Positions 8,501-64,000 of a DNA stretch of 64,000 nt are shown one piece after another. Origin of the DNA: Apteryx mantelli (Eukaryota > Chordata > Aves > Apterygiformes > Apterygidae); assembly GCF_036417845.1 (NCBI RefSeq), contig NC_089981.1:9937501-10001500 (forward strand). Direction: 5' to 3'. The translations under genes were made by a program, and so were the position numbers. The notes under the pieces are model-generated. The model saw only the letters and a program-made list of their open reading frames with translations. It made no database searches and was not told the origin of the DNA. Position 1 is the stretch's first letter. The number at the start of each line of letters is the position of its first letter.

Positions 8501-9740
8501 TTGACCAAAGGAACTCTGGTGGTCTGGGTGCATAAAGGCAAGCTAGAAACGTTACACTCTTTCTAAAGATGTAGGCTACTCATTTATTAGTGACACGTAA
8601 TGCTCGATGGGTTGTAGCTGGAATACAGGGTGAACCAAAGAAGTCCCATGTTTATGCTGGAATGTGACCTTGTCTCGAATGAGAAACTGTATGGATGTAG
8701 AAATGCCTAGGGACAAGGAGCTCAGCCATAACCTAAAACAGGTGGATGGCATTACAAAAAGCTCTGAGCTACTTTCAGGAACCAAAAGGGATTATTCTCT
8801 AAAGGTCATTCTAACCTGGTGGTGCTAATTTGCTTAAGCTCCTCATAGTGAGTGGAGGAAAAAAGGGTTCTGCAAAGGACCCTAATTTAGTCATTCTGAA
8901 TCAGCCTATAGAGAGACTTATACTGGCTGTTGGAGGAGTTTAGTTAGATTAGCTTCATTAAGCTAAGTTAACCCTTGAAAGGATCACGCAGAGCGTATCA
9001 AAAATCATACTAGGCAAAATCAGTACAGTGCTGGGACAGAAGATCTCACAAGAGTCTTTCATTCTTCCTTCCTCTGATAGAAACAATGCTGAGATTTAGA
9101 ACAATGTCAAATACTCCATTAAGTCATATGTGCAATTTTTTTCCCCTCCATGATAGATAACCTTCCCAGAACTCATTTTTCAGGCTGTGACATTTCATAT
9201 TTACATTTCAAAATGTATATACACAAGAGAGTTCTTTTCTCTGCATGTGGGTACATTTCTCTTCTAAACAAGAATTCAAAGATCATGTGTACTTATAAAG
9301 CAAATCATCATTCTGAGCAATATTTCCAGGTATTCTTAAAGACACCCATTTTACAAAGATTGCTGTCAGGGACTTTGTCTCCCCTGAGGGCAAACATACT
9401 GCATTATCTGCCTTGTAGTGCCCAAGGTGAACACTCTGGCCTTGTCCTTAGTGCATGGAAGGCTACCAGCCATGGAGCCGGTCCTTCAAAATCCTGGAGC
9501 ACCAGGATTAAGGAACATATCACAGAGTGCACCTATCTCTGTGCCACCAAAGCCATGGCAGAAGCTTTGTACTGTGGAGAATTAAATAGCCGTTTAAAAA
9601 AAAATACATGACAGAAACTAAACACTTCATAAGCTTAATACTAATGCTATATCTTTCTTGGTTTGTATCCACTTCTGATATAGAATCATTATTAATAATG
9701 AAAAAATGCTGATGAATCATGTGTCTGTTTTTATTTTCCC
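5547..9740. other. Intergenic inside unit A, upstream of OR1
   Basis: About 4 kb without a recognised gene. It includes a CTTTG/CCTTT microsatellite at about 7021-7083. The whole stretch has a close counterpart at 36055-40252. A 73-codon frame at 8314-8535 is open in both copies, but I attribute that to the recent duplication. Confidence 0.5.
7021..7083. repeat. Pyrimidine microsatellite (unit A)
   Basis: Interrupted TTTGC/TTTCC pentamer tract. The unit B counterpart (37538-37590) has a cleaner GCTTT run and a different length. Confidence 0.8.
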
Positions 9741-9742
9741 AG
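9741..9742 (+). other. Putative splice acceptor before the OR1-A coding exon
   Basis: The tract TGTTTTTATTTTCCCAG ends 43 bases before the OR1-A start codon. OR genes usually have an untranslated upstream exon spliced to a single coding exon. An equally good acceptor (AG at 40253-40254) precedes OR1-B. Confidence 0.6.
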
Positions 9743-9785
9743 GTGTGTAAGCTGTATATTGCATATTGGCACCCGACTGACCAAC

Positions 9786-10721
9786 ATGGAGAATGCAAGC
9801 AGTGTGAAGGAATTCATTCTTCTGGGCCTTTCAAAGAACCAAGGGGTGCAGAAAATATGTTTTGTGGTGTTTTTGTTCTTCTATATTGTTACTGTGGCAG
9901 GAAATCTGCTCATCGTTGTCACTGTAGTTAGCAGTCAGAGTCTGAACTCCCCCATGTATTTCTTTCTCTGCCACATGTCCATTGCAGATACTTGCTTCTC
10001 TTCTGCCACAGCTCCCAAAATGATTGCTGACTTCCTTGTTGAGAAGAAAACCATTTCCTTTGGGGGTTGCATGGCACTGCTATTTGGGTTTCATATCTCC
10101 GGCGGTGCTGAGGTCTTCATCCTCACAGTGATGGCCTATGATCGCTACTTTGCCATATGCAGACCCCTGCACTACACCACCCTCATGACCAGGCGTGTGT
10201 GTGGCTGGATGGTGATGGGTTCATGGGTGGGGGGTTTTGTGCACTCCCTGGTGCAGACCCTCATAACCATTAGCCTCCCTTTTTGCGGTCCCAACAAAAT
10301 TGACCACTACTTCTGTGATGTCCGTCCCCTACTGCAACTGTCCTGTACAGATACCTATGTTGCAGGCATCATTGTCGTTGCCAATGGTGGAATGATTTGT
10401 TTGGTCTCTTTCATCATCCTGGTCACGTCCTACATTGTCATTTTGTTTTCCTTGAAAAGGCGAACGTCCGAAGGGCGGTACAAAGCCCTCTCCACCTGTG
10501 GGTCCCACATTACTGTGGTGATTCTCTTCTTTGGGCCATGCACATTCACCTACATACGCCCATCCAGCAGCCTCTCGGAGGACAAGAGGTTAGCTGTGTT
10601 TTACAATGTCATCACACCCATGCTGAACCCACTCATCTACACACTGAGAAATGAGGAGGTGAAAAGTGCCATGAGAAAACTGTGGAATAGAAAAGTTTGG
10701 AGTGAAAAGGGTGAGGTGTAG
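9786..10721 (+). CDS. Olfactory receptor 1, unit A (OR family 4-like)
   Basis: Intronless seven-transmembrane odorant receptor of 311 residues, acting at the ciliary membrane of olfactory neurons through the Golf/cAMP pathway. I chose the ATG giving [15 protein letters not shown]. It places an N-glycosylation site (N3-A-S) at the N-terminus and matches the length of OR1-B. Visible OR hallmarks are GN in TM1, the PMYFFL segment, [10 protein letters not shown] at the end of TM3, the HYFCDV extracellular loop, KALSTCGSH at TM6 and [12 protein letters not shown] in TM7. The sequence most resembles OR family 4. It is complete, without stops. Compared with OR1-B it has substitutions in TM3 (LLFGFHISGG versus [10 protein letters not shown]) and loop 2 (HYFCDVR versus LYFCDVH), which may alter ligand binding. 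Confidence 0.95.
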   Translation: MENASSVKEFILLGLSKNQGVQKICFVVFLFFYIVTVAGNLLIVVTVVSSQSLNSPMYFFLCHMSIADTCFSSATAPKMIADFLVEKKTISFGGCMALLFGFHISGGAEVFILTVMAYDRYFAICRPLHYTTLMTRRVCGWMVMGSWVGGFVHSLVQTLITISLPFCGPNKIDHYFCDVRPLLQLSCTDTYVAGIIVVANGGMICLVSFIILVTSYIVILFSLKRRTSEGRYKALSTCGSHITVVILFFGPCTFTYIRPSSSLSEDKRLAVFYNVITPMLNPLIYTLRNEEVKSAMRKLWNRKVWSEKGEV

Positions 10722-13700
10722 AACTGTGGTAACATTTTCTCAGGAGCTGAGAAAATCAAGTCTCTCTCACTATAATTCCATTTTGGAAAATTTACTGAAA
10801 ACTCCCTTTTGAAGAAAAGCTTGGTTTTAGCTGTTGCAGTAATTAGGAAGACGCTGAAAGTTCATGTTTTGATTGGAATGGCATTGTAAACTCTGTGACT
10901 AGCAGGGATTCCCTTTATGTTCTCTTTCTGAATAGCACAGGCCCAGGACTGGGGCTTCCAAGCACTGCTGAGACACCAGCAAATAAAGAAATGAATGCTA
11001 TCAAAAATATTAAAATGTGTTCCAGGCAGAGCATCCCATTAGTCCGAGCTCTCCCAGGTGTAAACTTTCCGTCAGACAAACTCCATCTACTCTGTAATCT
11101 ACTCAGCTAGGAAACAATGGCCCAAGGTGTCTGCAAGGCTGTTGGTCACCTGCTGCTGGAAGCAACTGTGCCAAAGGCTTCCTTCCCCTTTACTTTGGAG
11201 TAAATGCCTTCTTAGGAGTACTGCATTGTCATATGCTGAATCCACGGGTTAGCAATTAAACTGCTGATATTAGATGCTGGCTGGGTCACTTGCTGATGCA
11301 GATGATATGAGGAGAAGCTTCTCCGCTTCCCATTACAGTGCAGCAACTCTCTGCCTTTCTGCAGTAGTTCACCTATCACTAATGCCCTCCTTCCTAGCCA
11401 TCCCCTCTGCCCTTCATCTCTGCCTCAGATTTTGCATTTTACTGTTTATTACTAAAACAGAATCAAAGATCCAAGTGAAAGATAAATTGCTCACTGTAGG
11501 AAATTGTCGCCACCAAAGAAAGCATTGGGGGGCACAATTTTATGTGTCAGTGAAAAAAAAGAGCTGTTTGGGAATAATTAATGTACGCAGGATAACTCCT
11601 AGCCCAACAGGGCACATCTACAGGCCCAGGCAAAGGAAGAAACATGTATTCCAAGGGAATAGCTGGAGCAGCTACTCCTGCAGGAGGGAAGAGATGTGAA
11701 GATGGAAGATTAAATCATCTCAGAGCCAGTCACAGCTGCCACAGGGAGGTTAGTTCTAGCAGCTAAGCTTCTCCACAAGGCCAAAGGAGCCACAAGGAGC
11801 CACGGGACCCTGACTCCTACCTTGCCAGGAGGAAAAGAGCAAATCAGCTGCGTGAGGGAGAAAGACATCTGTGTAATGCACTCTGAAAGTAACTAAAGCA
11901 CTTTCTTTTTTCTTCCTTCACTTCACGTTCCCTATAAACACTTGCTTGCACTTGTGTTGCACCTTAACATGGCTTAAGTGTGGTTTAAGATAAGAAGGTG
12001 TTCCCTGCACAGGAGAGCAGCAGGTCTACAGACCAAACCCTGGGACAATGTCAGAAATGCTCTGGTTCCCCAAATGTCCTCTGCTCTATGCAGGGGGTGG
12101 CAGAGTGGGTTCCCATTTCACAGGCATGCACCAGTACACTGTGGACATCTCAGTGTCTTCTCCTCACCATGGTGGGTTATGTGGATGGCAGCCAGCAGGA
12201 CGGAACTGGGATAAATCCTGATTCTCAAGGCTTAGAGGGATAGTGTCCCTCAGGCCTGGGCCAGCATGTCCCTCACCCAGCATTCACACTCTGTGGACAC
12301 AGCTAAAGGTGGGACCACCCCCACCTATTTGTAGCAGTCTAAATTCTTCATGCAATGAAGGACAGTTGTCTAGCTCAGCACCATTGTCAACAGAGAGGGA
12401 CAGGCGCCTTCAGAGGTTGGTCTGTCTCACCTGGGGTGGGGCAGGTAGAAAGACAGATGGGGCCCACTGACCCCCTTCATACTGAAACTGCTGAGGGGTT
12501 AGGGCACACGGCCAGTTCAAGCTAAGGCTTATTATTTAAAAACTGTTTTGTTTTGTTTTTTTTTAATGTTTTGGGGAAGAATGCCATGATTTTTCTGATT
12601 TCTCTTCTGGCTGCTGGATGCTAGCAGGCAACAGCGGGACCATAGCTTATGGAAGGCGTCAACAACAACATTTGATTCCTCTACACATTGGCCCAGATTC
12701 TTATAATGACTTAATATGAGGACTAAACAGCTGCTTCTATATTTTGCATTGCCTGAGTAAAAATACCTGGCAAGTAGTGAGGCCTGACCACAAACATTTT
12801 TAAAGTCTTGAAATGATTTCCTCGTTTACTTCTTGTTTCAAACGTGTACAGACCAGATGTCTAAGTGCCAACAGTCATATAGCACAGTTCTGATATTTAT
12901 TTATGCTGCAAACATGCAATGGTAAGAGCAAGTTAATAAGAAAGAAGAAAGCATATGTGAAATATTGGCTTGGAAGGGAAAAAATATCTGACACGTGTAA
13001 GAGACATCTTTACTCAAAAAATGTTTGATTGCAAGGGCAATGTGAACACAAAATCTTGCAAATGGTCAGCCGTGACATTGATTTTAAATAGAAATGTTTC
13101 CAAAAGAAGCACATAGCTAATACTAAATGAAGTCCATTTATCTGGACAGCATTGGAAAGCAAGCAAGAAAGCAAGCAAACCCCCCCACAATGTGACATGG
13201 TCTAGGTGATCACGCTCCACAGTCACCCTGTAGAGATTACTCTAATAGCTGTCCAAAATATATATTTTAGCTCCCCGTCCACTGATTCTTTCTGACAAAG
13301 AAAACTTCACATGCCTCTGCGATCTCATTGCTTCTGGTAAGCTTGTGCTTCTGCTGTGCAATTTACTTGAAATATTTCTGCCACAACTTCCCCATCTGGA
13401 GAGAAAGAGAGTTGTTCTTGCAGATGCTCTTGGAAGTTGTTTTTGCAGAATGAGAAATGGAGCTAGACATTCAGGCTGTCCGTTTCATCCTCTGTAGTTT
13501 TCAGCCCTGGCAGAGATGTGGACTGCTCTCGTGACACATAAGAAGCAGCTTGGAGCTGAGAGGTTTTGATGAAACTGCCTGAAGTGGTCCAAGAAGGGCA
13601 TCAGAGGACAATAGCAGGCAATCCTGCCTTCGAAAAGAGACATTATTGTTGAGTGACTTTTGTGAGGTGCATTTTATGAATTAGAGAGAACTCAATTTTT

Positions 13701-31805: not shown

Positions 31806-32495
31806 TCAGAATGAGCAGAAGAAGAGGACAGTGAGCATAATCAGGGTGAAGAGCCTGCCTGTTTGGAGGTGCTGGGAGCTGCACTTGCCTTTGAGGAAGA
31901 GGGTGAGGCTGAATACCAGCATGAGGGGCGTGCAGAAGAGGAAGTCCAGGACTCCAATGGTGATGAAGAGTCTGTGGCAGTTGCTGGAGGGGCGAACAGT
32001 GCAAGAAACGTACCCCAGCATGTTCAGCAGCAGCGAGAGGCTCCAGAGCAGGCTGGAGATGATGCCGGACAAGTGCTTTGGGCGATGGCTTCGGCACCAG
32101 CTGGGACAGAGGACAGACAGGCACCTCTCAATGCTGATGGCTGTCAGGAGATAGAAGCCAGTCCCGCACGTGAAAAGATCCAGGAAGAGGAATATCCCAA
32201 ACTGTACTCCCACATTGAAGTGCATCAGGCACTGAACTGTTTCGATGGCAATGCAGAGCAGGTAGCCAAAGTCAGCGGCAGCCAGCTTCAGGATGTAGAC
32301 AGTGAAGCGGTTCCTCTGGATGCGGAAGCCAAGGTACCACAGGACCGTGCCATTTCCCACCATACCAGAGGCAGAGCTGATGAGGCAGAAGCTTTCCATG
32401 AACTTGAGGAGAGCATATGACGGCCCTGCCTTTTGCACAGTCCCACTGTAATTAGTCCCTTCAGCCAGGCTTGAACTGCTTTGAAAGGAGAGCAT
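31806..32495 (-). pseudogene. MRGPR-like receptor, N-terminus to TM6, truncated
   Basis: The minus strand encodes 229 residues of a Mas-related G-protein-coupled receptor, a sensory/peptide-sensing class. I start it at the ATG giving MLSFQSSSSL. It has an N-glycosylation site (NYS), TM1 with GNGTVLWYLGF, the family motif NRFTVYILKLAAADF in TM2, TM3 ending in SIERCLSVLCPSWCR (the MRGPR version of DRY), TM4 (SLLWSLSLLLNML), and TM5-TM6 (LTLFLKG, TLIMLTVLFF). The frame stops inside TM6 and downstream sequence lacks TM7. About 90 residues of a normal receptor are missing. A TM7 plus tail fragment occurs 29 kb away on the same strand (2497-2727). The N-terminal part has no internal lesion. Confidence 0.9.
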
Positions 32496-32596
32496 TATGA
32501 ACTGATCAGTCACTATGAAATAACCAAAATGGAGAAAGTTTCTTCTTCTCTCTGTTTCTGCAAGAGACAGAGGGGAATTTGGTGACTGATACACTG

Positions 32597-32605
32597 CTTT
32601 TATAC
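32597..32605 (-). promoter_or_regulatory. TATA-like box upstream of the MRGPR-like gene
   Basis: TATAAAAGC on the minus strand, about 100 bases upstream of the chosen start codon. The position suits a core promoter, but I have no other support. Confidence 0.4.
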
Positions 32606-34602
32606 TTACAGCCTTGTGGCCTGGGACAGCTATCGCTCACGGAGTATGCATGGTTGATGTCTGGGAAGGTAACAGCAAGATGCTACATACTGAGGAGAAG
32701 GCAAAATCATGCAGAAATTTGGAGAGGTTGAAGCAGGAAGACAGGGTGAGACAGTTCAACAGAGTTAAAAAAAAGAAGCAGAAGAAAACATTGCTGCTTA
32801 TAGACAGGGAGGAGCAGGAGATGGGGAGGGGGTAACTCTACGCAGTGATCGTGTGTGTGTGTGGATGTCTGTGAGAGAGGACATGAAGATGGAACAGCAG
32901 AGACAGAGAACATCCCAAAGCATTAATGATGGCAAGGAAATGCTGAACCTATCCCAGAAATGCTTACCTTCCTGCCCCAGTGCATCGGAATTGACTGCTC
33001 AGAGAAGCTGGGACCTGGCACCAGCTCTAGTGTCTTTCTCTTGGTTTCTGATTCATCCCATGGATATTCTGGGAAACAGTTTCTGTGAAAAAGACAAGGA
33101 AGTTCTTTCAGCCTGCAGATTCAGTTTCTGTCTCCTGTGGCGTAATGAAGCAGGTGTTGTCAGGAAGGAGTGTTTTCGCTGTACTGAGGAGGCTGGGACG
33201 AAGTCAGTGGCAGATGAGAATGGGGCTCTCTCATGTTGTGAGGCAGTTTCCTATTTCTGCTCTACTTCTCTGGTTGCTTTTACAGTAGGTGGGGAGAAAA
33301 TTACCTGCCAGGGATTCCATTCCCAGGGATGCTGTGGGATTTTGCATGCATCTGTGAAAGGCTCTTGGTGCGTTCGTACTCTGGCCAAATGCTGTTATAA
33401 AGGAGATGTACAAATGAGCAGTCGGTAGAGATTGCGGGAAGTTTTCAGAGTAACTGTATTCTGTTTTGTTTTTTCTTTCTTGGAATATGAGAGTCAGCTG
33501 GAATGGGATTATTCCAGAGGAGGATGTCCCTTCTTCCAATGTTGGACTGCTCTGAAACACGCATATGCACCTACAGATTCCTTCGTCCAGACCTCAACCA
33601 CATTGCAGAAATACCAACAGTACCCTGAGTGCCTTATGTTGCAATCAATGAGAAAATAAAGACTATTTCAAACTCTGGTGTCTAGGAGCTCTTGTGATGA
33701 GTGGAGTCAGGTTTGCTGCCCTCAGGGCGGCAGGTGTCCCTTGCAGGCACCTCATGCCACTAGTACATGGACTACGTTGAGGAACACACTCAGCACTAAC
33801 ATCCTTGGCTGCCTGTCTCCTTTCAACCGTCCCCAGGGAAGCAGAAATGTGGTTTTTTTTCAGGGTGCTGGTGGCCCCCGAGGAACGCATTCTTCTTAGC
33901 CATGACCACTGACCTTCTAGAGTGCTCTGTGTCCTGGCATCTTCCCAGAGAGATACTGAGCAAGTCAGAGGACAAACATAGCTCACTTGCTGAGGGCATG
34001 CTCCATGGTAGGCTGGGCTGGCTATCTTAATGTTAGTTCAGGGCAGAAAATTCTGCACATGATCCCTATTCCTTGCAGTCATCCTATCACTGACTTCTTT
34101 TGGACCACAAGAAATATATTGCAAACACGTGGCAGATGGCACCTCTGAGAATGCTTGTCTCTTACTGTCAGTGATTGAGAGGGTCTACGATGGTGGTTTA
34201 CATCCTCTGGAGGTGCCTCTCTCTCCATTGGGCATTCAGGGAATGTCAGGTAATTAGCTTTCTATCTAAGACATTTCAAACAGATTTCATAATGTTAAAT
34301 AGCATCAGCCTGGGCCATTGATATGTACTGTCATGTACTGTCATACTGGTTGTAATGGACGCCCTGTGGAGATATGCCGAATCATCAAAAACTTTGCATT
34401 CCATATAATGCAAGTGAAGTAACCATCCTATGACTTCCATAGACCGTGCAAAAGCAAGCTGTAAAAGTCACTCACATTTCTCGTATATCTATTATAAGGC
34501 TTTGGTAAGATTGGTCTCTTGTCTCCAAAGCATATTCAAAACCTGAGTCTACTTCCTTAATGAAACTAATTAATGAAAGCCTGCATCAAATAGCAGCAGC
34601 AT
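32606..34602. other. Intergenic left of unit B
   Basis: Not part of the duplication and without a gene I recognise. A 191-codon frame at 32853-33428 shows no family motif. Confidence 0.5.
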
Positions 34603-35322: not shown

Positions 35323-38300
35323 GTGGTGTCCAGAGCCAGGTGCCAAGGGAAGTGGAATGAAAATGGAGAAAAGACCTTTCTCCTTTGCTGGCACTAAGCA
35401 CACCCCTACGGGGAATTATTTTGCAGCAGGAGGTAGCAGCAATTCTTCATTTGGACTTGTGCATTAAGTCACCTCTGGAGGTCCATTTGGCTAGGGAAAC
35501 AAAAGGACATGAATGTGATGCTAGCCAAGTTGCTGCCATGTGTGCCACTGGGTACAGAAAGTGGCAGGCTGACTCATACTAGGTTAGCAGGCCAGATGCT
35601 ATTGGCCTGATCTCTGGCTTCTGTCATCTGTTGCTCCTCTTCCTTTCCCAAAGACTGTAAGACTTTGTTTACCTTCTTACCCAATACTCTTGTTTCCTGT
35701 AGTGACTACTGTTAACCCTCATTAAGCTGCCCAAGGCTCCAGGCAGCAGTAAAAGGACATTTAAGTTAGGGGACTATTTTCACCAAGGCATTTCTTTACC
35801 AGTATTTATTCTCATTAACTGTAGGATTTCTGTTTTCACTGTGGAGATCGCTGGCATTCTGTGCAGAGGAGATGGAGACATTAACTATGTTGCTATCAGG
35901 CCATTCCACATTTCCAGAAATATCAGCAAAACAAAGTAAAGGACAGTAGCTGAGACAATGTCTTTCCTGACATCCATGAGGCATAAGCTACAAATACACA
36001 GTAGAGTTCAGAGCCATGATAAATTTGACTTGGGCCTTGGTCGAGATGATATGGTGATATAAATCAGCATGTCTATTTGCTTCGTTTGTTTCATTTCATA
36101 GGTTCACCTTTGACTGCAGCTGCTCGGGTTAAGAAAGATGGGGCCCATCATGACAGTGAGATTTGTCCGCCCTCAGTTATTTTGTTTAAAAGCTAGATGC
36201 CTATTTCAGACCTAATCGCATCCTAAAATCAGTTCTGAGGTAGATCAGATGCATCTGCCTCCAGAGACATTCATTTTTTTCTGCAGAAGAGCCTAGAGTG
36301 ACTAAGTCAGGGTTAAATTTGCTGACTTCCACTGGCATTAAATAGGTGACTTCCTCCCTCAGTTTCCCAATTTGTAAATGAAGGATTTTTTGACTGACTT
36401 GGTAATTCACTGACCTCTGTTAAAACATGCAAATTCTTGCAAAGAGGCTTTATTCACTGGATTTCCAGTGATGAAATTTCTGGTGAGATAGGACTTGGAG
36501 GGTCATCAAGAGGTCACCCAGGACATCTTCTGTCCCTATAAAAACTTCATCGTAACCACTCCTGAGAGAAATGAGCCCAACCTGTCCTTAGAAGACTCCT
36601 GTGATAGGAATTCTTTACCATCCCTGGAGGATGGTGACTCTTCCTACAGCTTGAGGTTTCTTTCTTTTTTTCCTTTAATGAAGATTTCTCTTTTACATGT
36701 TTTTTGGAATACACAGAAGTTAAAAAAGGAGAGAAAATATCTAGATTACAAATGGACTGTTTTAGCCTTCACAATGCTAGGAAGCCAGAGCAGTGGACCT
36801 AATGGCCCTTTACACAGGGGAAATCTATACAACTATCAGCTTGGAGTAAGGAAGAACTCCGAGAAGCATTAACTGGATAGTTCCATGCATATGCTTGTCC
36901 AGCTGAATACTCAGCTACTCCTTTGACTGTTATTTCTTGTGGAGAAACCCTGAAATGCCTTTGTGATATCATTATAAAAGCACTGACTGACAACTGTTTC
37001 TTTAAAATACATTTACTTAAACTTTTCAGTCAAGACAGAACTCATTCTCCTCCTTTGCCACTTTCTTTCACGCCTTGCCTTCACTAAGCCTCCACCCCTC
37101 CCTCCTCCAGCCCCAAGAGCCCTTCAGGTGGAAGATTTCCTGCGAGAGGGTTAAAGGTTGGTACTTAAACGGTTTTCTTCTCAGCCCTTTTTGCAGCTGC
37201 TGGGGTATGAAAGCATCATTCAGCACACCCAGGTCACATCATCCACACAGCCTATTAAACCACTTCTCACACAGGCAGGAAACATCAAGATACACTTGTG
37301 ACACACGAAAGCAAGTAATAAATCAGATGGGACTGGATTATACACTAACAGCCACCTCCTAAGCAAGTTTTGGAAGCTTTCCAGAAGCCATTCTATGTTC
37401 TTTAAAGGTGCTGTGCTCTAACACATTCATACCAGGGGAGACAGAAGTTGAGGAGATAAAGCTGTACAGCCCTTACACAAAAAATTAGATCTCTAAACAC
37501 AGGTGAGGTAAGTTTTGCAGCTTCTCTGCCTTCTCGCTTTGCTTTGCTTTGCTTTGCTTTGCTTTCCTCTTCCTTTTTCTTTCTTCTTGAACAAATGTGA
37601 AAATACAGAAAGGAACTTCCACTGAAGTTATCAACTGTCTCTAGTTATCTTTGGCTAGAATCATACACAGAGCTAGTTCTACAGCCGCAGATTCGATTGC
37701 TTCGATATTATTCTTTTGTTTCCCATAACCACCGGAGATTTTAGGGAAGAATGCATGCAGTAAGGAGATGGTGCAATTTCTCACCCTTTCTGAGATGTTA
37801 AGAGTACACATGAGATTCATTTTATTTTGCAGCTGATTGCATTATGTCATATAGCTCAGGTCTACCCCTGCAAAGGCACTTGAAGAGATAAGCCATAACT
37901 GGTGGGAATCCTCTACTGAATTAGTCATTCTAGTAATCCTCTTGGAGTCAACAGTAAGAAACGGGTACCTGCAGCTCATGATTCATCACATCTACAAGTA
38001 GACTGGTCAGGTGTAATATGCCTAGCTTAGGTACAGGTGCCTACATGACTTAAGGCGATGAGATGAGATCAGACAGATGGGTAGTTTGTTAAATGCAGTT
38101 TGGTGGTGATGGAAAGGACCTTGTCAAGAAAGACACATAGTCGAGCTGTCTGAATTGTGAATCGGTCCTTTTGTAGATGCACACCGTGTTTCTAGCTCAG
38201 GAATTTGCCATCTGCTGGCATTCAGGCATGCAGTTTCCCCTGACCATTTCTCTCTTGGTCACTCTTTTCTGATTGCCTAAATGTGGCCCTGCGATTGCTG

Positions 38301-40252
38301 TGGTATGCTTCCAGTCATGCTCTGGCTTGGATGGAGCCCAGCTATTTCTTTTCGACTGGGTACTGCACAGCCATAAAGGTGTGCTCATTTCATCCCTGTC
38401 ATTTATTTTGTTGAGAAGTCTACGTCATTGCTCAGTAGAAGGAAGAGGGGTAGAAAGGATCACGACCTGGTAAGACGAGGGAGAAAGTGACCTCCCGTTG
38501 TTCTTACTGATCCTTTTCCTTGTAGAAATATCTGAAAGGGAACCATCCATGTAAAGTTTACCCTTCTGCTTGAAAAACTTTCATCTAGTGTAAGTACAAC
38601 TGTAAGCATAGGAAAAGTCCCTACCTTTGCCCACTTCCTCTCTCGGCTTCACTTTGTGGGTTTGAAAGTAATCTTGGCTTTTCTCAGTTTCAGTGTTTCC
38701 TGTGGATGCTTGATCACTTTGTGCCTGCACGAGAGTTTCTGATTATGCTGCAGATGGAAGTAGTTGGTAGATAACTTGGCTTAACTGAATCATTCCACAG
38801 ATTTGCTCACAGATCACCAAGACAAATGAGAAGACCTGGTTGTGGTGTAATTCTGCAGGACTTAAAATGGTGCATTTTAACACCAGCTGACGGGGAATGT
38901 TTTGATGCTAGAAGGAAGCCCATACAGGGGATATTTTTATTAAAAGAGTGCCTGCTTTTGGCTGACCTTAAACTCTCTGTGAAGAGTTTCATCTGGTGGT
39001 TCCCACACTTCTTTGACCAAAGGAACTCTGGTGGTCTGGGTGCATAATGGCAAGCTAGACACGTTACACTCTTTCTAAAGATGTGGGCTATTCATTTATT
39101 AGTGACATGTAATGCTCGATGGGTTGTAGCTGGAATACAGGGTGAACCAAAGAAGTCCCATGTTTATGCTGGAATGTGACCTTGTCTCGAATGAGAAACT
39201 GTATGGATGTAGAAATGCCTAGGGACAAGGAGCTCAGCCATAACCTAAAACAGGTGGATGGCATTGCAAAAAGCTCTGCGCTACTTTCAGGGACCAAAAG
39301 GGATTATTCTCTAAAGGTCATTCTAACCTGGTGGTGCTAATTTGCTTAAGCTCCTCATAGTGAATGGAGGAAAAAAGGGTTCTGCAAAGGACCCTAATTT
39401 AGTCATTCTGAATCAGCCTACAGAGAGACTTATACTGGCTGTTGAAGGAGTTTAGTTAGATTAGCTTCATTAAGCTAAGTTAACCCTTGAAAGCATCACG
39501 CAGAGTGTATCAAAAATCACACTAGGTAAAATCAGTACAGTGCTGGGACAGAAGATCTCACAAGAGTCTTTCATTCTTCCTTCCTCTGATAGAAACAATG
39601 CTGAGATTTAGAACAATGTCAAATACTCCATTAAGTCATATGTGCAATTTTTTTCCCCTCCATGATAGATAACCTTCCCAGGACTCCTTTTTCCGCCTGT
39701 GACATTTCATATTTACGTTTCAAAATGTATATACACAAGAGAGTTCTTTTCTCTGCATGTGGGTACATTTCCCTTCTAAACAAGAATTCAAAGATCGTGT
39801 GTACTTATAAAGCCAATCATCATTCTGAGCAATATTTCCAGGTATTCTAAAAGACACCCATTTTACAAAGATTGCTGTCAGGGACTTTGTCTCCCCTGAG
39901 GGCAAACATGCTGCATTATCTGCCTTGTAGTGCCCAAGGTGAACACTCTGGCCTTGTCCTTAGTGCATGGAAGGCTACCAGCCATGGAGCCAGTCCTTCA
40001 AAATCCTGGAGGACCAGGATTAAGGAACATATCACAGAGTGCACCTATCTCCGTGCCACCAAAGCCATGGCAGAAGCTTTGTAATGTGGAGAATTAAATA
40101 GCTGTGAAAAAAAAAATACATGACAGAAACTAAACACTTCATAAGCTTAATACTAATGCTATATCTTTCTTGCTTTTATCCACTTCTGATATAGAACTCA
40201 TTATTAATAATGAAAAAATGCTGATGAATCATGTGTCTGTCTTTGTTTTCCC
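35323..40252. other. Intergenic inside unit B, upstream of OR1-B
   Basis: Counterpart of the stretch before OR1-A. No gene is recognised. It contains the empty CR1 site and a GCTTT pentamer tract at 37538-37570. Confidence 0.5.
36045..36060. other. Empty CR1 insertion site
   Basis: GATGATATGGTGATATAAAT is continuous here. In unit A the same flanks are separated by 1.25 kb of CR1 (4294-5546), so this preserves the pre-insertion state. Confidence 0.85.
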
Positions 40253-40297
40253 AGGGGTATAAGCTGTATATTGCATATTGGCACCTGACTGATCAAC

Positions 40298-41233
40298 ATG
40301 GAGAATGTAAGCTGTGTGAAGGAATTCATTCTTCTGGGCCTTTCAAAGAACCAAGGGGTGCAGAAAATATGTTTTGTGGTGTTTTTGTTCTTCTATATTG
40401 TTACTGTGGCAGGAAATCTGCTCATCGTTGTCACTGTAATTAGCAGTCAACGTCTGAACTCCCCCATGTATTTCTTTCTCTGCCACCTGTCCATTGCAGA
40501 TATTTGCCTCTCTTCTGTCACAGCTCCCAAAATGATTGCTGACTTCCTTGTTGAGAAGAAAACCATTTCCTTTGGGGGTTGCATGGCACAGCTTTTTGGC
40601 GTACATTTCTTCGGCGGCGCTGAGGTCTTCATCCTCACAGTGATGGCCTATGATCGCTACTTTGCCATATGCAGACCCCTGCACTACACCACCCTCATGA
40701 CCAGGCGTGTGTGTGGCTGGATGGTGATGGGTTCATGGGTGGGGGGCTTTGTGCACTCCCTGGTGCAGACCCTCGTAACCGTTAGCCTCCCTTTTTGCGG
40801 TCCCAACAAAATTGACCTCTACTTCTGTGATGTCCATCCCCTACTACAACTGGCCTGTGCCGACACCTATGTTGCGGGCATCATTGTCGTTGCCAATGGT
40901 GGAATGATTTCTTTGGTCTCTTTCATCATCCTGGTCACGTCCTACATTGTCATTTTGTTTTCCTTGAAGAGGCGAACATCCGAAGGGCGGTACAAAGCCC
41001 TCTCCACCTGTGGGTCCCACATTACTGTGGTGATTCTCTTCTTTGGGCCATGCACATTCATCTACATACGCCCATCCAGCAATCTCTCGGAGGAGAAGAG
41101 GTTAGCTGTGTTTTACAATGTCATCACGCCCATGCTGAACCCACTCATCTACACGCTGAGAAATGAGGAGGTGAAAAGTGCCATGAGAAAACTGTGGAAT
41201 AGAAAAGTCTGGAGTGAAAAGGGTGAGGTGTAG
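40298..41233 (+). CDS. Olfactory receptor 1, unit B (OR family 4-like)
   Basis: Intact 311-residue OR, paralogous to OR1-A, starting [15 protein letters not shown] with an N-glycosylation site (N3-V-S). It has [25 protein letters not shown] and [19 protein letters not shown]. Relative to OR1-A it keeps the commoner residues in TM3 ([10 protein letters not shown]). In loop 2, however, it has Leu where most family members have His (DLYFCDVH). A pyrimidine tract with AG at 40253-40254 precedes the start. Several of the A/B differences seem to fall in TM3 and loop 2, regions that line or cap the odorant pocket. Confidence 0.95.
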
Positions 41234-44200
41234 AACTGTGGTAACATTTTCTCAGGAGCTGAGAAAATCAAGTCTCTCTCACTATAATTCCATTTTGGAA
41301 AATTTACTGAAAGCTCCCTTTTGAAGAAAAGCTTGGTTTTAGCTGTTGCAGTAATTAGGAAGACACTGAAAGTTCATGTTTTGATTGGAATGGCATTGTA
41401 AACTCTGTGACTAGCAGGGATTCCCTTTATGTTCTCTTTCTGAATAGCACAGGCCCAGGACTGGGGCTTCCAAGCACTGCTGAGACACCAGCAAATAAAG
41501 AAATGAATGCTATCAAAAATATTAAAATGTGTTCCAGGCAGAGCATCCCATTAGTCCGAGCTCTCCCAGGTGTAAACTTTCCGTCAGACAAACTCCATCT
41601 ACTCTGTAATCTACTCAGCTAGGAAACAATGGCCCAAGGTGTCTGCAAGGCTGTTGGTCACCTGCTGCTGGAAGCAACTGTGCCAAAGGCTTCCTTCCCC
41701 TTTACTTTGGAGTAAATGCCTTCTTAGGAGTACTGCATTGTCATATGCTGAATCCACGGGTTAGCAATTAAACTGCTGATATTAGATGCTGGCTGGGTCA
41801 CTTGCTGATGCAGATGATATGAGGAGAAGCTTCTCCGCTTCCCATTACAGTGCAGCAACTCTCTGCCTTTCTGCAGCAGTTCACCTATCCCTAATGCCCT
41901 CCTTCCTAGCCATCCCCTCTGCCCTTCATCTCGGCCTCAGATTTTGCATTTTACTGTTTAGACTAATAGAGAATCAAAGATCCAAGTGAAAGATAAATTA
42001 CTCACCGTAGGAAATTGTCGCCACCAAAGAAAGCATTTGAGGACAAAGAAAGCATTGGGGGGCACAGTTTTATGTGTCAGTGAAAATAAAGAGTTGTTTG
42101 GGAATAATTCCTGTATGCAGGATAACTCCTAGCCCAACAGGGCATATTTACAGGCCCAGGCAAAGGAAGAAAAAAGTATTCCAAGGGAATAGCTGGAGCA
42201 GCTACTACTGCAGGAAGGAAGAGAAGAAATGTGAAGATGGAAGATTAAATCACCTCAGAGCCAGCCAAAGCTGCCACAGGGAGGTTAGTTGTAGCAGCTA
42301 AGGTTCTCCACAAGGCCAAAGGAGCCACAAGGAGCCACGGGACCCTGACTCCTACCTTGCCAGGAGGAAAAGAGCAAATCAGCTGTGTGAGGGAGAAAGA
42401 CATCTGTGTAATGCACTCTGAAAGTAACTAAAGCACTTTCTTTTTTCTTCCTTCACTTCATGTTCCCTATAAACACTTGCTTGCACTTGTGTTGCACCTT
42501 AACATGGCTTAAGTGTGATTCAAGATAGGAAGGTGTTCCCTGCACAGGAGAGTGGCAGATCTACAGACCAAACCATGGGACAATGTCGCAAATGCTCTGG
42601 TTCCCCGAATGTCCTCTGCTCTATGCAGGGGGTGGCAGAGTGGGTTCCCATTTCACAGGCATGCACCAGTACACTGCGGACGTCTCAGTGTCTTCTCCTC
42701 ACCGTGGTGGGTTATGTGGATGGCAGCCAGCAGGACGGAACTGGGGTAAATCCTGATTCTCAAGGCTTAGAGGGATAGTGTCCCTCAGGCCTGGGCCAGC
42801 ATGTCCCTCACCCAGCATTCACACTCTGTGGACACAGCTAAAGGTGGGACCATCCCCACCTATTTGTAGCAGTCTAAATTCTTCATGCAATGAAGGACAG
42901 TTGTCTAGCTCAGCACCACTGTCAACAGAGAGGGACAGGCGCCTTCAGAGGCTGGTCTGTCTCACCTGGGGTGGGGCAGGTAGAAAGACAGATGGGGCCC
43001 ACTGACCCCCTTCATACTGAAACTGCTGAGGGGTTAGGGCACACGGCCAGTTCAAGCTAAGGCTTATAATTTTAAAACTGTTTGGGTTTTTTTTTAATGT
43101 TTTGGGGAAGAATGCCATGATTTTTCTGATTTCTCTTCCGGCTGCTGGATGCTAGCAGGCAACAGCAGGACCATAGCTTATGGAAGGCATCAACAACAAA
43201 AACATTTTATTCCTCTACGCATTGGCCCATGAGCTTCAGCCTCTGCAGCAACAGAAAGGTGACAACTGGCAGGACCAAACGACTGTATTTTCCTGAAACG
43301 TGTAAAATCCTTCTTTAGGGTGCCATAGATGATCATAGGGACACAATCTTTGCTATAGTTATGCACAGCTTTAAGGAGAGAAACTCAGGGGAAATAACAG
43401 CCCTAACAGGCTTGCAGTGAAATGCAAAGGGAATCCGCAAGACCTCTTTCCATCCCCCTTTGACTGTAAACTTTATGCAGAGGCAGGAACCTCTCACCTG
43501 TCTGAGATTAATTCTGTCACTTTCAGCTCAATGAGGGTTTCCATGCCCAGTCCAGAACTTGGCTGAGGTGTACAAAAACCTTACTGACACATCGTTAATG
43601 CAGATTATCTCCAGTATTCACCCACGTACTGTAGGAAAATTGGTCTGAGGAAATACAAGCCTGCTCTTTTGGAGACTGAGGTCGCAACCCAGAAACTCAT
43701 GAGCAATAACTGGAACCAATCCACACAAGATGTAGCCCAGTACAGCACATATAGGACAATGACTCTCCTGCTTCAGGTTTCCTGGCATCCCTTGAACATG
43801 GTCTGATTTCACTTAGGGTGCCTTAAAGACAATTTGTGCCTAAAGGCACATCTCTGCTAAACAGACATGAGGTAGGTGTCCACTTTACCTCCTCCAGAAG
43901 GATCTACACTGAGAGTTGAAGTGATGTTAATTAGCCAGCTGCCTTGTGTCATGATGTGAACACTGATGGTTGCACAAAAATGCATGGACATTCTACCAGA
44001 GTCAGAGAGCAATAGCAAGGACTAGTTCTGTTGAATTCCCTCAGAGGGTTGAAAAAGAAGGTACGTTCACTGCTTGAGCAGAATTCCTTAGGGGATGACT
44101 AACGTGTTGAGACTCAAATCAAAACATGCACTACCCTTCTCAGTCAGTTTTTCATTTCCAAATCAACACAACAAAAGTGAATGTTTAGGGAACCTAGTAA

Positions 44201-58757: not shown

Positions 58758-60149
58758 ACTGATATTATCAATAAACGTTGAAAAATGGAAACTTTCTCAA
58801 CCATCTTACTTATTTCGAATTCTCCTTTTCAAACAAATAGATAGGGTCCAAAAACTTTCTCAGCTCTTTGGCATGCTATGATCATGCCTTGCCACCAGAT
58901 GGCGAAGGCACAAACCTGAGTGTGTATAAATGAGTATACACTGGTGCTGATGTTTTCCAGTAAGTTGAAGATGGCTATTTTATTTGTTGGATTTTTCTTT
59001 AGCCATAGTAGGGCGCTATATTTTAAAAAACTTTTCTGAAAATTGTCATAATTCTCCTGCACAAGTTAATTATGAAAAATCATACAAGGGGACATCCATA
59101 GGTAAAGGAGGAAGTGACACAATCCAGTATTATAGCTGGGGAGGCAGCACAAGTATTTGGGGAAGCAGAGTAAAGGGAAGACAAGAGGATTTTCTTCTGT
59201 GAGGTGAACTGAATAACTGTGAAACTTCCACCTTGCAGCAATTAAGTTACTGTGCTCCTTCAGCAAATTATCCATTATGAATGTATTAATTATGTCACCA
59301 AATACGTCAAAAGTTCAACATCTGCCAACAAGAGAAATACAGGGAGTTACATTATCTGTTTGTGTTAGACTAACTGACTCTTAGGATTCAGTTCATCCGC
59401 CTAAATTCAGGCATCCTACTGAAGGACCTCATGCTGGTGCCCGGGTAGTTGGAGATCTCTCAGTAGAGATAAAAGGGAGAAATTGGTGAGGATTGTGGGT
59501 GAAAACGCTCATGTCATCTACCAGGAAGCACCTAAAAGCTTTGTCTGAATCTAATCTAGTCATCTAAACCCCCTCTGGACTCAACGGAGAGAGACAGGCA
59601 GTTCCTGGAGATGATTCAACTTGTCCTAAGGAAGAAGCGCTCTGTGAAGATGCTAACTTCTTTCTCTCTGATGAACACAGAGGAAGCCTGATTAGCTTTA
59701 AATAGGTCACTTGCATACAGCTAAAGCTCAGCAAGGAAGTCTTCCTGTATGTTTTCCCCAAGTGTTTCACACCTATGAGCATTTGAAAGAGTAATCATGG
59801 AGCCTGGCCTCCTGCATTGCTGTGGTATGGAAATATGGTGTGATGGCATGGCGCAGAACTGCAGGCTTGGGAGGGTAAGGCTGGTGGATTTCCAGGGAAG
59901 GGTTTTTGGTTTTGTTTTTGTTTTTACACATGCACGTGCAATTTCACACATACTTTCTCCATGTCATGTTGATTAGGCTGAATGCATCCCAGATTTTGGG
60001 ATGTGCATAGTTTACCGTGCACTTAAAGAGAGTCAGAACAGCACACGGTGCAGCTCAGTGTGATATTTCAGAGAATGTGAAATGCATCTCCTGGACAGAG
60101 CTGTGCAGTAGATCCAGACCCATCATGGATCTTGAGCACATGCCACATG

Positions 60150-60635
60150 TGTCGCGGTCCGCGGGAGTGACGGGAAAGAATCATACGCATTCACAGAATG
60201 CAGGTTCAATTCCAACTTTATTCGGCAATTTGCCCATCTTATATATGTTTGTGCAGTCGTACACTTTGCTAGGCCAATCACCATGCAGATTATGTCACAG
60301 GTAGCCAATCATGGCACCGATCACGCACGCAGCGATCATGCCTTGTACCTTGCTACTTATTTAGCAAAGCTATCTTACCCTTAACCTTGGTTCCCACTGG
60401 CTTCTGCTAGTTTATCTGTACTTTCTCAGGATGTATCATTTCCAGCTGCGCCAGTGTCCTTGGTGGACTACTTCAAAGCACGTAGCAGTGGCTATAGCCT
60501 GAGGCCTAAGGCTTCAGCAAATTTAGCTACTAATGCTAAGCAAGTTGTGCTAAGCAATTAATCCTAAACAGTGTTAGTTCCATGCTCTATATCTCATATA
60601 GATTATTGTTCTGAAGCACCGCAAGGGCCCCAACA
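60150..60635 (-). repeat. 3' LTR
   Basis: On the minus strand the LTR begins TGTTGGGGCCC, directly after the polypurine tract, and ends CCGCGACA near 60150. That gives about 486 bases with TG...CA ends. It has a TATA element (CATATATAAG, about 60239-60248) and an AATAAA signal at 60217-60222, a compact U3/R arrangement typical of alpharetrovirus-type LTRs. A second LTR for comparison is not in the window. Confidence 0.8.
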
Positions 60636-61918
60636 CTTCCCCCTCTTCTTTCAAATAATAGATCAACCATTTTCTGTACCCGAGCTAGGATGCATTGTAG
60701 TATACAAGGCCCACAAATCAATGGGAACATGCCCACGACACCTACGGTAATCAGCTGTTTTAGTCCAGCTGCCAACCAGGGCCCTATAGCAAGCATATTC
60801 AACCAATCAAACAGTCCCCACAAGTTTTCACCATCGTCTTCTTGCAGTTGTTTTGTTAACTCCTTCAATTTTGCAATGCTTGTATGTACTGACTCAGAAT
60901 GATCACTCAGGTTCATACAACACATTCCTTCAAAGTCTTGACGGCCATGGCCTTGGGCCAATAGCAAAAAGTCAATTGCAGCCCGATTTTGTAAGGTGGC
61001 ATATCTAATTGAATCTACGTCTGTTAATAAGGTACTTAAAGCAGTACTAGTAGCATTTGCTTCTTTTGCAAGCCAGCATCCTAATCTGTTAAGTTGTGAT
61101 AAAGCATGAGCAGTCCCTATTCCTGCAAAAATACTACTCAAGATACGTTCTGCTGGATTCCAAAATTCTACGTTACTATCGCAACCTGACATAAAGCTGT
61201 GGGTGGATCGCTTTGCTCGAAGATGGACCGTTCCATCAATTAACCATTTTTCAGGATGGAATATTGTCAAAAGTCCAAAGATACATGGTCCCCCCACAGC
61301 TTTACCTGGTACGCCTTTCCAGGCTCTCTGACCACGAATTAAGAATATCTTAGCAGCCAACCCTATGGGTTGCGGTCCAGGTGTTATTTGACCTGAGGTG
61401 GTGTGATTACACCATACAGATGTATTGGCATAAATGCCTGAGGGAGATACATCAACGTCGCCCTCTTTGGTAGGTGCCCTTGCAGTATAATTTAGATAAA
61501 AGCAGACTGCAGCCTGTGTAATTCCCAATAAGTCAAGTTCTTGTGGCTGCAGTGGCAAGGCAGGAAAATTGTGTACATTGTGCATATTGTTATACCATGT
61601 GGAAATATTCCACTCCTGCGTCTCCATTCTGCATCGCACCACCACCATTTGGGCTGAAGTGTACCTGGCGCACTACAATTTGCTAACACCGTATCATTGT
61701 AAAGAGACCCCATGAGCTGTATATCAAGAGGAAGTCCGGTCAAGCAAGTGTGGAAAGGGTCTGATGGCATCGTCATTGATAAACAAGGTGTCCGTATTGG
61801 TTACATTCGCAAGAGTCACCCAGATGTTGCCACGTTTCCAGGTGCCTGGTCCGACGGGCATGCTTGTTGCTCCGAGGATGAGGCAACATAAGGTCATAAA
61901 CGTTGCGACGGCACCCAT
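60587..61918 (-). pseudogene. env: Retroviral env, frameshifted
   Basis: Encodes surface and transmembrane subunits. The start at 61918 opens a hydrophobic signal peptide (MGAVATFMTLCCLILGATS) and overlaps the end of integrase by about 25 bases. The surface part is split across two frames: the middle (about 61640-61776) is in another frame than the regions before and after it, which share one frame. A furin-type site RAKRS lies at 61205-61219. The transmembrane part has the conserved LQNRAAIDFLL segment. The first Cys of the expected CX6CC motif is Arg (60941-60943), while the last two Cys remain (60917-60922). A membrane anchor follows and the frame ends inside the LTR. It is defective through the frameshifts. 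Confidence 0.88.
60636..60652 (-). other. Polypurine tract
   Basis: GAAAGAAGAGGGGGAAG on the minus strand, immediately before the LTR TGTTGGGG start. This is the plus-strand primer site of the retrovirus. Confidence 0.85.
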
Positions 61919-62580
61919 CGTAACCGAATTCCTGTAGAAACACAAGCATTTCCCCTCCCCCAGGTTATCAGTTCCATTGGTCCCACCCATTGGTCGGAAA
62001 CCAAGTCTTTGACCAAAACTGGGGGCTTTTGTATTGATCTCATGTCTGTGGCTTGCTGACGTTCGAAATTATTATGACCTGCTTCATCACAATTCAAAAA
62101 ATTAAGGACATATAACGCTTTGTGTAGTCATTCTTGTGGGGTGAGCAGTGTCTCCCCCCCTTTTTTTTTTTTTTGTTTTTGTAGCATGTCTTTCAGGCTG
62201 CGGTGTGACTGCTCAACAGTGGCTTGGCCAGCTGGGGAGTGGGGTATGCCTGTTACATGAGAGGTGCTCCATGTATTGAGGAATTGACGTACACGGCCTG
62301 AGCAATAGGCTGGGCTGTTGTCCGTTTTGATGGTTGTTGGCACCCCCAAGACCGCAAAGCAGGCAAGCCAATGGCGAGTCACATCCCTAGCCTTTTCACC
62401 AGTGTGGGCGGTGGCCCACAAAAATCGAGAATGGGTGTCGACTGTGACATGTACATATTTAAGATGACCAAATTCTAAAACATACGTAATGTCTGTTTGC
62501 CCTAATTCATTAGCCTTTAAAACTCTAGGGTTCGCCCCTTCCTTTGAAGGCATTGGGGTGAACTACTGACAGTCTGAACA
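61894..62580 (-). pseudogene. pol: Retroviral integrase
   Basis: The catalytic core retains the D,D-35-E signature: Asp in VTVDTHSRF, Asp in IKTDNSPAY and Glu in ATVEQSHRS, with exactly 35 residues between the last two. An AT-rich lysine stretch and an in-frame TGA after LLTPQE interrupt the protein near 62125. The same frame then continues into the C-terminal DNA-binding domain (VKDLVSDQWVGPMELITWGRG, RWVPSQRL) and stops at 61894. The two His of the N-terminal zinc finger are in the upstream RNase H frame. The CxxC (CSDC) and the core are in a different frame, so there is also a frameshift near 62580, with a TAG just after it. Confidence 0.88.
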
Positions 62581-63130
62581 AGACAAAAATAATGTCTCTG
62601 GCCTGCTGGATGGGTAGCTGAAACTGCCTCTTCAGCGAGCAGGTGTTTTGATGAAAGAAGGAGTGAGACAGCCTGGCTTGTTCCAGAAGGTTGAGTACCA
62701 CCGCTGGCATGGCTGCAGCATCAGCACGTCGATTTCCCTCAGCGATGGGTCCGGCCAGGTCCGTGTGTGAGCGTACATGTAAAACATAAAAGTCATGCTT
62801 TCTGTGATTAATAAGAGTCCAAAGAGCATAAAGTTCTGCAAAGAGCAATGGATTGGAGATCTCACGAAGAAAGGAGGCCTCCAACCTTTGCACAAGGCCT
62901 GCAGCATAACAGGAATCAGTAACAACATTTACAGGTTCATTGGCACAAAGTTCAAAAGCCATACGGATGGCCACCATCTCCAGTACCTGTACCGACCCTC
63001 GTTCCTGTGTACGTACGGTTGTTCTCCATTGTTGCATGACAGGGTCCTGCCACATGATAGCAGCCCTTTTAGACCTGCCCGAAGCATCGGTGAAGACAGT
63101 CAAATCAGGAACCGGGACAGGGCGACAGCG
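62581..63130 (-). pseudogene. pol: Retroviral RNase H and start of integrase
   Basis: One open frame holds a complete-looking RNase H domain with the four acidic residues of the active site: Asp in VFTDAS, Glu in VLEMVAI, Asp in VTDSCY and Asp in NRRADAAA. The conserved HVRSHTD segment precedes the last one. It continues into the first half of the integrase zinc finger (SHSFFHQNTC) before the frameshift. The domain is joined to the upstream RT connection through a frame change near 63130. RNase H itself shows no lesion. Confidence 0.85.
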
Positions 63131-63742
63131 ACTAGGGGTAGGCTGCCAGCCTCTGCCCATAACCTGTGCCGAGGATAATGGATGGAAAGCTGTCCAGTGA
63201 AATCAGCAAGGGCTACTTGAAAACCCCAATCTTCTGAAATTAACCAGTTCAAATTGTCTGTAGTGGCTGGGATATAAATAACTTCAGGGTCACAGCCATT
63301 CATGGTTTGCAGTCTCTCCCTGCCCTTAATGATAAGCTTAGAATACATTTTTGTAAGAGTCCATAAGTTTTTCGGTGGAGTATGTTACAGAAAAATCCAT
63401 TCCAAAATGTGCAAGGGATCTGTGCTTTTTGTATCCCATCAAAGTAATACTGCAAAAGGCTGGAAGCAGTTAGCAATCAGAGCTAAATAAAAAGGCAATG
63501 AGAAGTCATGTCGCCAACTCTGGCATTCCTCCAGAGCACGGGCACATAACTGGAGTGCCTTTCTCGCTTCAGGTGTCAAAGTTTGAGTGGAAGTTAGGGA
63601 GGTGTCCCCTTTGAGCTTTTCAAAAAGGGAGTGTAGCAGTTCCGTGGAAAGTCCTAGCACTGGTCAGAGCCAATTAATGGCTCCTAATATTTTTAGTAGG
63701 TCATTAAGCATGACAATATCGTTTAATTGCAGTTGGACTGGC
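63131..63742 (-). pseudogene. pol: Retroviral RT thumb and connection, 5'-truncated
   Basis: The thumb starts at about 63742 with LNDIVMLNDLLKILGAINWL, followed at once by a TGA where an Arg codon is expected, and then PVLGLSTELL and LTPEARKALQL. A connection-type segment follows (about 63130-63348: DNLNWLISEDWGFQVALADFTGQL). No fingers or palm and no YxDD box are present upstream. RT homology ends within about 50 bases of the VAPA-like sequence. The enzyme is therefore truncated by a recombination junction as well as by stops. Confidence 0.8.
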
Positions 63743-63782
63743 TGCAATTACAACAAGAAGTGAAGGAAGAGAATTAGAGCCA

Positions 63783-64000
63783 TTATCTCTGAGGATCATA
63801 GTCAAAAGGTTGTAGCATTACTTTGAATTTGAGGTCGGTGGGTGGATCGAGCACCAGGATCTGCTTGTGCTTAGCCAGAGCCCTGGCGGCCGCCATCTCG
63901 CTCGCTCGCTACCGCGGGGGGGGGGGGGGGGGAGGAGCGGGAGGGGGAGGCGGGGAGGCCGGGCGGCGGCTCGGTGCTGGTGCTGGCGCTGAGGGGCGGC
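63783..64000 (-). pseudogene. VAPA-like processed fragment: 5'UTR, exon 1 joined to exon 3, fused to the retrovirus
   Basis: On the minus strand a start codon (63896-63894) in G+C-rich 5'UTR-like DNA opens a frame of 37 codons. Its residues 11-25 (KQILVLDPPTDLKFK) are the beginning of the MSP domain of VAPA, the ER membrane protein that binds FFAT motifs. The next ten residues, VMLQPFDYDP, are the VAP segment that normally lies about 50 residues further on, at the start of exon 3. There is no intron and exon 2 is skipped, so the template was spliced RNA. Homology stops after DYDP; two more codons and TAA follow, then retroviral pol on the same strand. It encodes no functional VAP. The 5'UTR continues beyond the window. 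Confidence 0.85.
63916..63932. repeat. G17 homopolymer in the VAPA-like 5'UTR
   Basis: Seventeen G in a row on the plus strand (C17 in the transcript sense), 20 bases upstream of the VAPA-like start codon. Its length should be treated with caution, as such runs are sequenced unreliably. Confidence 0.85.

Follow-up and report, generated by a model that had tools for sequence, protein, structure and literature searches.

A defective endogenous retrovirus family of Apteryx mantelli carrying a spliced VAPA fragment, very probably captured by template switching

Avian acute transforming retroviruses such as MC29 and MH2 are defective: an mRNA-derived insert follows a shortened gag, replication genes have been lost and a helper is needed. 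The element described here is likewise defective, with a host insert after a shortened gag and with viral genes lost, but it differs from MC29 and MH2 in that its cargo is not an oncogene and, as far as tested, is without sign of function, and in that it is present in the germ line in many copies. Among endogenous retroviruses (ERVs), CrocERV29 carries a KIT-ligand and CrocERV31 a nectin3 mRNA (PMC4299795). They resemble the present case as ERVs with a host mRNA inside the provirus and several copies, whereas their cargo consists of a long open reading frame for which purifying selection is indicated and which lies either between pol and env or where env sequence has been given up (PMC4299795); here, the fragment is collapsed and apparently neutral, it replaces nucleocapsid (NC), protease (PR) and the reverse transcriptase (RT) palm, and its splice join is found at 131 places. 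In LTR-mediated retroposition, with chicken among the reported cases, a host mRNA is captured by template switching at microsimilarities (PMC5408686). Host-ERV chimeric cDNA and short shared stretches at the joins are common to that process and to our element; the present chimera differs in still having its two LTRs and in having multiplied as a family of proviruses. Capture of host mRNA by ERVs was known already, and the present element is notable for the nearly complete set of joins and the copy number; among the literature matches listed, including passages of PMC6523648, no VAPA-carrying ERV is named. Host-gene capture is seldom seen with all joins, the donor gene and related ERVs in one genome. 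In the present case, the splice skip, an internal jump, a common deletion and both outer joins are readable nearly base by base, and a retrovirus without an RT palm of its own has spread widely with a piece of a host gene, which provides a datable and testable system for the pickup of ordinary cellular mRNAs by ERVs in birds.

The window analysed comprises 64,000 nt (C4:9937501-10001500, in an assembly of 1.504 Gb and 408 contigs); positions given without a contig refer to it. We conclude that it very probably contains part of a defective host-gene-carrying ERV that captured VAPA mRNA by template switching and was then amplified. An earlier note, made from the letters of the window alone, had read RT thumb, RNase H, integrase, env and LTR in one orientation, and this is confirmed by domain matches and the LTR pair. 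On the minus strand, the RT thumb occupies 63550-63744 (identity to PR/RT-bearing ERV relatives from 63744; Pfam thumb match 63663-63550), RNase H 62708-63106, and integrase 61906-62677, with its zinc-binding, core and DNA-binding domains in separate frames; an env open reading frame (60587-61672; Avian_gp85 and TLV_coat matches) overlaps the 3’ LTR (60150-60635, TG...CA). Extension past position 64000, as the note had suggested, revealed gag, the primer site and the 5’ LTR (C4:10003774-10004259). The window copy is a complete provirus with an LTR pair of 486 bp (4 mismatches, no gaps) and a 6-bp target duplication, CATGTG at 60144-60149 and a second CATGTG preceding the 5’ LTR. The note had further assumed VAPA to stand in place of gag, pro and the RT palm; this holds for pro and the palm, but gag is present just past the window end as a 696-codon frame with p24 N- and C-terminal matches that reads into the VAPA 5’UTR. 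The window copy has a TGA after gag codon 24, and gag extends into the first zinc knuckle of NC, of which the first half is present. Thus, the chimera keeps LTRs, leader, gag to capsid (CA), RT thumb, RNase H, integrase and env and is without PR and RT palm. Judged from the aligned relatives, in which all of them are present, the rest of NC, PR and the RT fingers and palm are what VAPA replaces, as they are absent between the joins here.

With respect to classification, the integrase is not closest to that of RSV/ALV: the best PDB chain was 5cz2 (148 bits versus 80 bits for 1c0m, labelled RSV integrase), which we take to be MMTV. This match of the integrase core may point to a pol of betaretroviral type. 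Env matches Avian_gp85, and the primer-site letters read beside the 5’ LTR are presumably tRNA-Trp-like; env may be recombinant. Avian proteins were among the closest matches for VAPA and env. A database search with Gag gave one homologue, 32% identical and without VAPA similarity, and scans of viral contigs gave one weak locus for env and none for RNase H or the join pattern.

In message order, the VAPA insert of about 300 nt comprises 5’UTR from which 33 nt are deleted, then exon 1, then 28 nt belonging to exon 3 and finally about 50 nt from the last exon. The 5’UTR and the coding part of exon 1, assigned by comparison with the host gene, occupy 63821-64000 on the minus strand (ATG at 63896-63894, exon 1 end at 63821), the 5’UTR running 44 bp past the window end to C4:10001544. 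The minus strand at 63896-63792 encodes MAAARALAKHKQILVLDPPTDLKFK joined to VMLQPFDYDP, that is, 25 residues of exon 1 followed directly by the latter; in a PDB sequence search, VAPA was matched as two separate stretches with the exon 2 residues missing between them. Alignment to the host VAPA gene on contig C2 places the junction precisely at the exon 1 and exon 3 boundaries: exon 1 ends in AAATTCAAAG before GTGAGG at 56675762, exon 2 (56692271-56692423; 153 nt, a multiple of three) is skipped, and exon 3 starts after AACAG with TAATGCTACAACC at 56697946, its first 28 nt forming 63793-63820 of the window in exact join to exon 1. Since these exact boundaries lie 22 kb apart in the host genome, the source was a spliced RNA with exon 2 skipped. 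The exon 1/exon 3 join claimed in the earlier note thus stands on the host gene alignment and on its 131 recurrences; the host gene has introns between the VAPA blocks and the provirus none, and genomic unspliced VAPA as the source is ruled out by the donor and acceptor sites in the host gene.

The same note had left some 50 bases before the RT thumb unexplained. They are present (63739-63792, minus strand) and turn out to belong to the VAPA last coding exon, with 20 of 20 nt identical to the host exon and a translation, RDNGSNSLPSLLVVIAA, that agrees in 17 of 17 residues with avian VAPA P0124 close to its end. Other candidate identities were an intron end, suggested by a 3’ splice site-like look, and ERV sequence; no convincing match was found when the piece was compared with ERV relatives and with the first 70 kb of host VAPA, and the identity with the last exon overrides both. 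In the host gene itself, a second exon 5-like reading resembling an exon duplication was seen at C2:56703953, about 300 bp past VAPA exon 5.

The viral sides of the joins were read from two ERVs of the same genome, which gave gag matches as L080 and L077 and pol matches as L092 and L093. Their gag has 81% DNA identity over the matched part, running into the zinc knuckle (GCSLCGAAGHFKKDC in L080). The chimera departs from the knuckle at GGGGCAGCA, 9 nt common to the VAPA 5’UTR and L080 NC, for which the chance at a random join is about 3e-5, the ERV side being deduced from relatives only about 81% identical; L077 shares just 7 nt (GGGCAGC) with VAPA at this place. In the window copy, the reading frame is shifted already before the knuckle, where copy L009 reads CSRCGAA. 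On the other side, identity to pol begins at 63744 or adjacent to it (89% for L092, 86% for L093, both with a YMDD palm upstream). Here, CAGCCA of L092 pol equals the chimera, and the VAPA residues fix 4 of the 6 host bases, the other 2 being third-codon positions; the overlap of the VAPA last exon with pol (63744-63739) thus amounts to up to 6 shared nt, possibly fewer. Both outer joins would accordingly fall where ERV and VAPA sequence briefly coincide, over 9 nt at one and up to 6 nt at the other, as predicted for RT template switching. The inner join of exon 3 to the last exon is not at a splice site and has only CCC in common, expected by chance in about 5% of cases. A further ERV (L088/L097) is 89% identical to the element in the LTR and 94% in the leader and 5’ gag, with a PR match adjoining, while CA and pol of the element match the L080/L092 type. 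By these similarities, the element is a mosaic with LTR and 5’ gag from one ERV type and CA and pol from another, so that more than one recombination would lie behind it.

What the earlier note had taken for a single element is a real provirus, but not one locus. Allowing up to 2 mismatches, the 24-nt exon 1/exon 3 join occurs at 57 + 74 = 131 places, with none for the reversed-pattern control; of 100 listed sites, 83 are exact and 28 lie on contig C11. As some sites are tandem or duplicated, independent insertions must be fewer than 131. When loci were retrieved by a query of pol only, 29 of 30 (the best of 40 scored, from 139 candidates) carried the VAPA join. We then compared 34 copies, the best-scoring ones and hence chosen by likeness to the window, after reducing loci that overlap within one copy to a single entry. 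At a tolerance of 2 to 4 mismatches, the gag/5’UTR join was found in 32, the 33-nt 5’UTR deletion in 31, the exon 1/exon 3 and exon 3/last exon joins in 33 each and the last exon/pol join in all 34. Neither joins nor deletion occurred in the host VAPA stretches, nor in eight short PR-bearing ERV stretches, the majority of them covering a single such place. Pol distances among the 34 copies averaged 3.2% (maximum 5.7%). The simplest reading of these common joins and the common deletion is one capture followed by amplification. One locus, L044 on contig C142, was considered as a VAPA-free parent and rejected: it still holds the last exon/pol join, with a CR1 end replacing the remainder. The VAPA last-exon piece adjoins the 3’ end of CR1 there, the contact lying within 1-2 bases of the exon 3/last exon join, and no LTR, gag or VAPA matches were found in the 3.5 kb beyond.

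Two observations concern the distribution of copies. Contig C11, which may be the W chromosome, has a length of 29.7 Mb, about 2% of the assembly, and holds 28 of the 100 listed join sites. At C4:17645212-17663737, four VAPA-carrying copies follow one another at an exact spacing of 6078 bp, three of the loci being identical over 4001 bp, which suggests either a tandem proviral array or an assembly effect; regular spacing of PR-bearing ERVs was also seen on contigs C3 and C5.

Retroviral template switching on a spliced VAPA mRNA, as put forward in the earlier note, is supported as the most probable origin, with the short shared stretches at the joins in its favor. While an ERV RNA was being reverse transcribed, the polymerase would have left pol just 5’ of the thumb and switched to a packaged VAPA mRNA with exon 2 spliced out. 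After some 50 nt of the last exon, it would have jumped inside this message to where exon 3 begins, proceeded through exon 1 and the 5’UTR and finally returned to ERV RNA at the first NC zinc knuckle. The product would then have given rise to many copies, which left 6-bp target duplications, and related ERVs of the same genome most likely supplied RT and PR. The packaging of VAPA mRNA, the order of the switches and the help in trans are what we infer, the last in view of the absent catalytic RT palm. Possible helpers would be ERVs bearing PR and RT palm: at least 150 PR family matches were scored in the genome, from 3157 candidates, and L092 and L093 carry the palm. As in transducing retroviruses, a spliced host mRNA lies inside the provirus in the same orientation, viral genes are replaced and the chimera was replicated.

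Alternatively, the chimera may have arisen first at the DNA or transcript level, with the 3’ half of an ERV residing in or near VAPA, readthrough from the VAPA promoter being spliced, and template switching taking place only at the 5’ join. Classical two-step models of gene transduction work in this manner, and the VAPA part, spanning 5’UTR to last exon, implicates a host transcript in any case. We nevertheless regard this route as unlikely, since VAPA and ERV have 9 nt in common at the 5’ join and perhaps 6 nt at the 3’ join, and the inner join is not a splice site. In a weak test, an 800-nt query (gag end, insert and early pol) gave no notable gag or pol match on the plus strand of C2:56632001-56702000.

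A further idea is that the VAPA piece aids the element, whether through a truncated peptide, through a Gag tail encoded by the 5’UTR or through an internal promoter, and that this explains the amplification. The 37-codon VAPA frame is indeed open in 33 of 33 copies, and the gag frame of the window copy enters the VAPA 5’UTR and is closed by a TAG that shares the frame of the VAPA ATG. However, the 33 copies (25 distinct sequences of 111 nt, hence low power) show 10 synonymous, 18 nonsynonymous and no stop variants, close to the neutral 28/69/3%, and thus no sign of purifying selection on the 37-residue peptide, and the frame from gag to VAPA shifts with homopolymer length among eight aligned copies. 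The promoter role that the earlier note had envisaged finds no support, the CpG sites decaying as in the flanking viral sequence (insert 12.0%, gag 11.7%, pol 14.2%; 32 copies versus the window copy). An aid by the VAPA piece thus appears quite improbable, and the piece would most probably be a passenger. It is conceivable, if doubtful, that the collapsed insert was advantageous, for instance through loss of PR and RT with the leader kept or through the GC-rich VAPA 5’UTR in the RNA, and that the VAPA-carrying RNA became parasitic on complete ERVs and, in this bird, outpaced many of these.

Bird LINEs make few processed pseudogenes, and the insert is bounded by gag and pol within one LTR pair rather than by a poly(A) and target duplication of its own, as would be the hallmark of LINE-type retroposition. 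That a VAPA processed pseudogene was hit by a separate retroviral insertion, or that the locus is an assembly chimera, can hardly be entertained when gag and pol flank the insert and a single LTR pair with target duplication encloses all three, the splice join recurs at 131 places, and a query of exons 2-4 (6 matches among 15 candidates, all scored) gave three VAPA places on C2 and, on C18, three that are presumably VAPB, without a processed copy containing these exons.

Several insertions can be placed in time through the LTRs. Ten further copies were sampled for LTR pieces. In three, the 6-bp flanks agree and the LTRs differ at 2 to 4 positions over about 488 bp; two retain complete LTR pairs, with 11 and 18 differences and flanks that do not match; and in five the LTR match is partial or missing, one being without a 5’ LTR match. 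Among copies with partial LTRs, one has 2 differences in 314 aligned bases and three have 10 to 17 in 182 to 302. With the avian substitution rate being near 2e-9 per site per year, the LTR differences give an age of about 1 to 2 million years for the window copy and the three clean copies, a figure that depends on this rate; the capture must be older than those insertions. The LTR pieces of L057, L060, L061, L063, L067 and L069 match the window LTR from base 173 only, which suggests LTR subtypes with a different first part of U3.

Beyond the provirus, CR1-like and olfactory receptor-like frames were seen by eye in the window, as was a G-protein-coupled receptor-like frame of 276 residues on the minus strand at 31806-32636. 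A long duplicated block with olfactory receptor-like frames occupies 5546-12695 and 36056-43229, the two copies being 96.5% identical.
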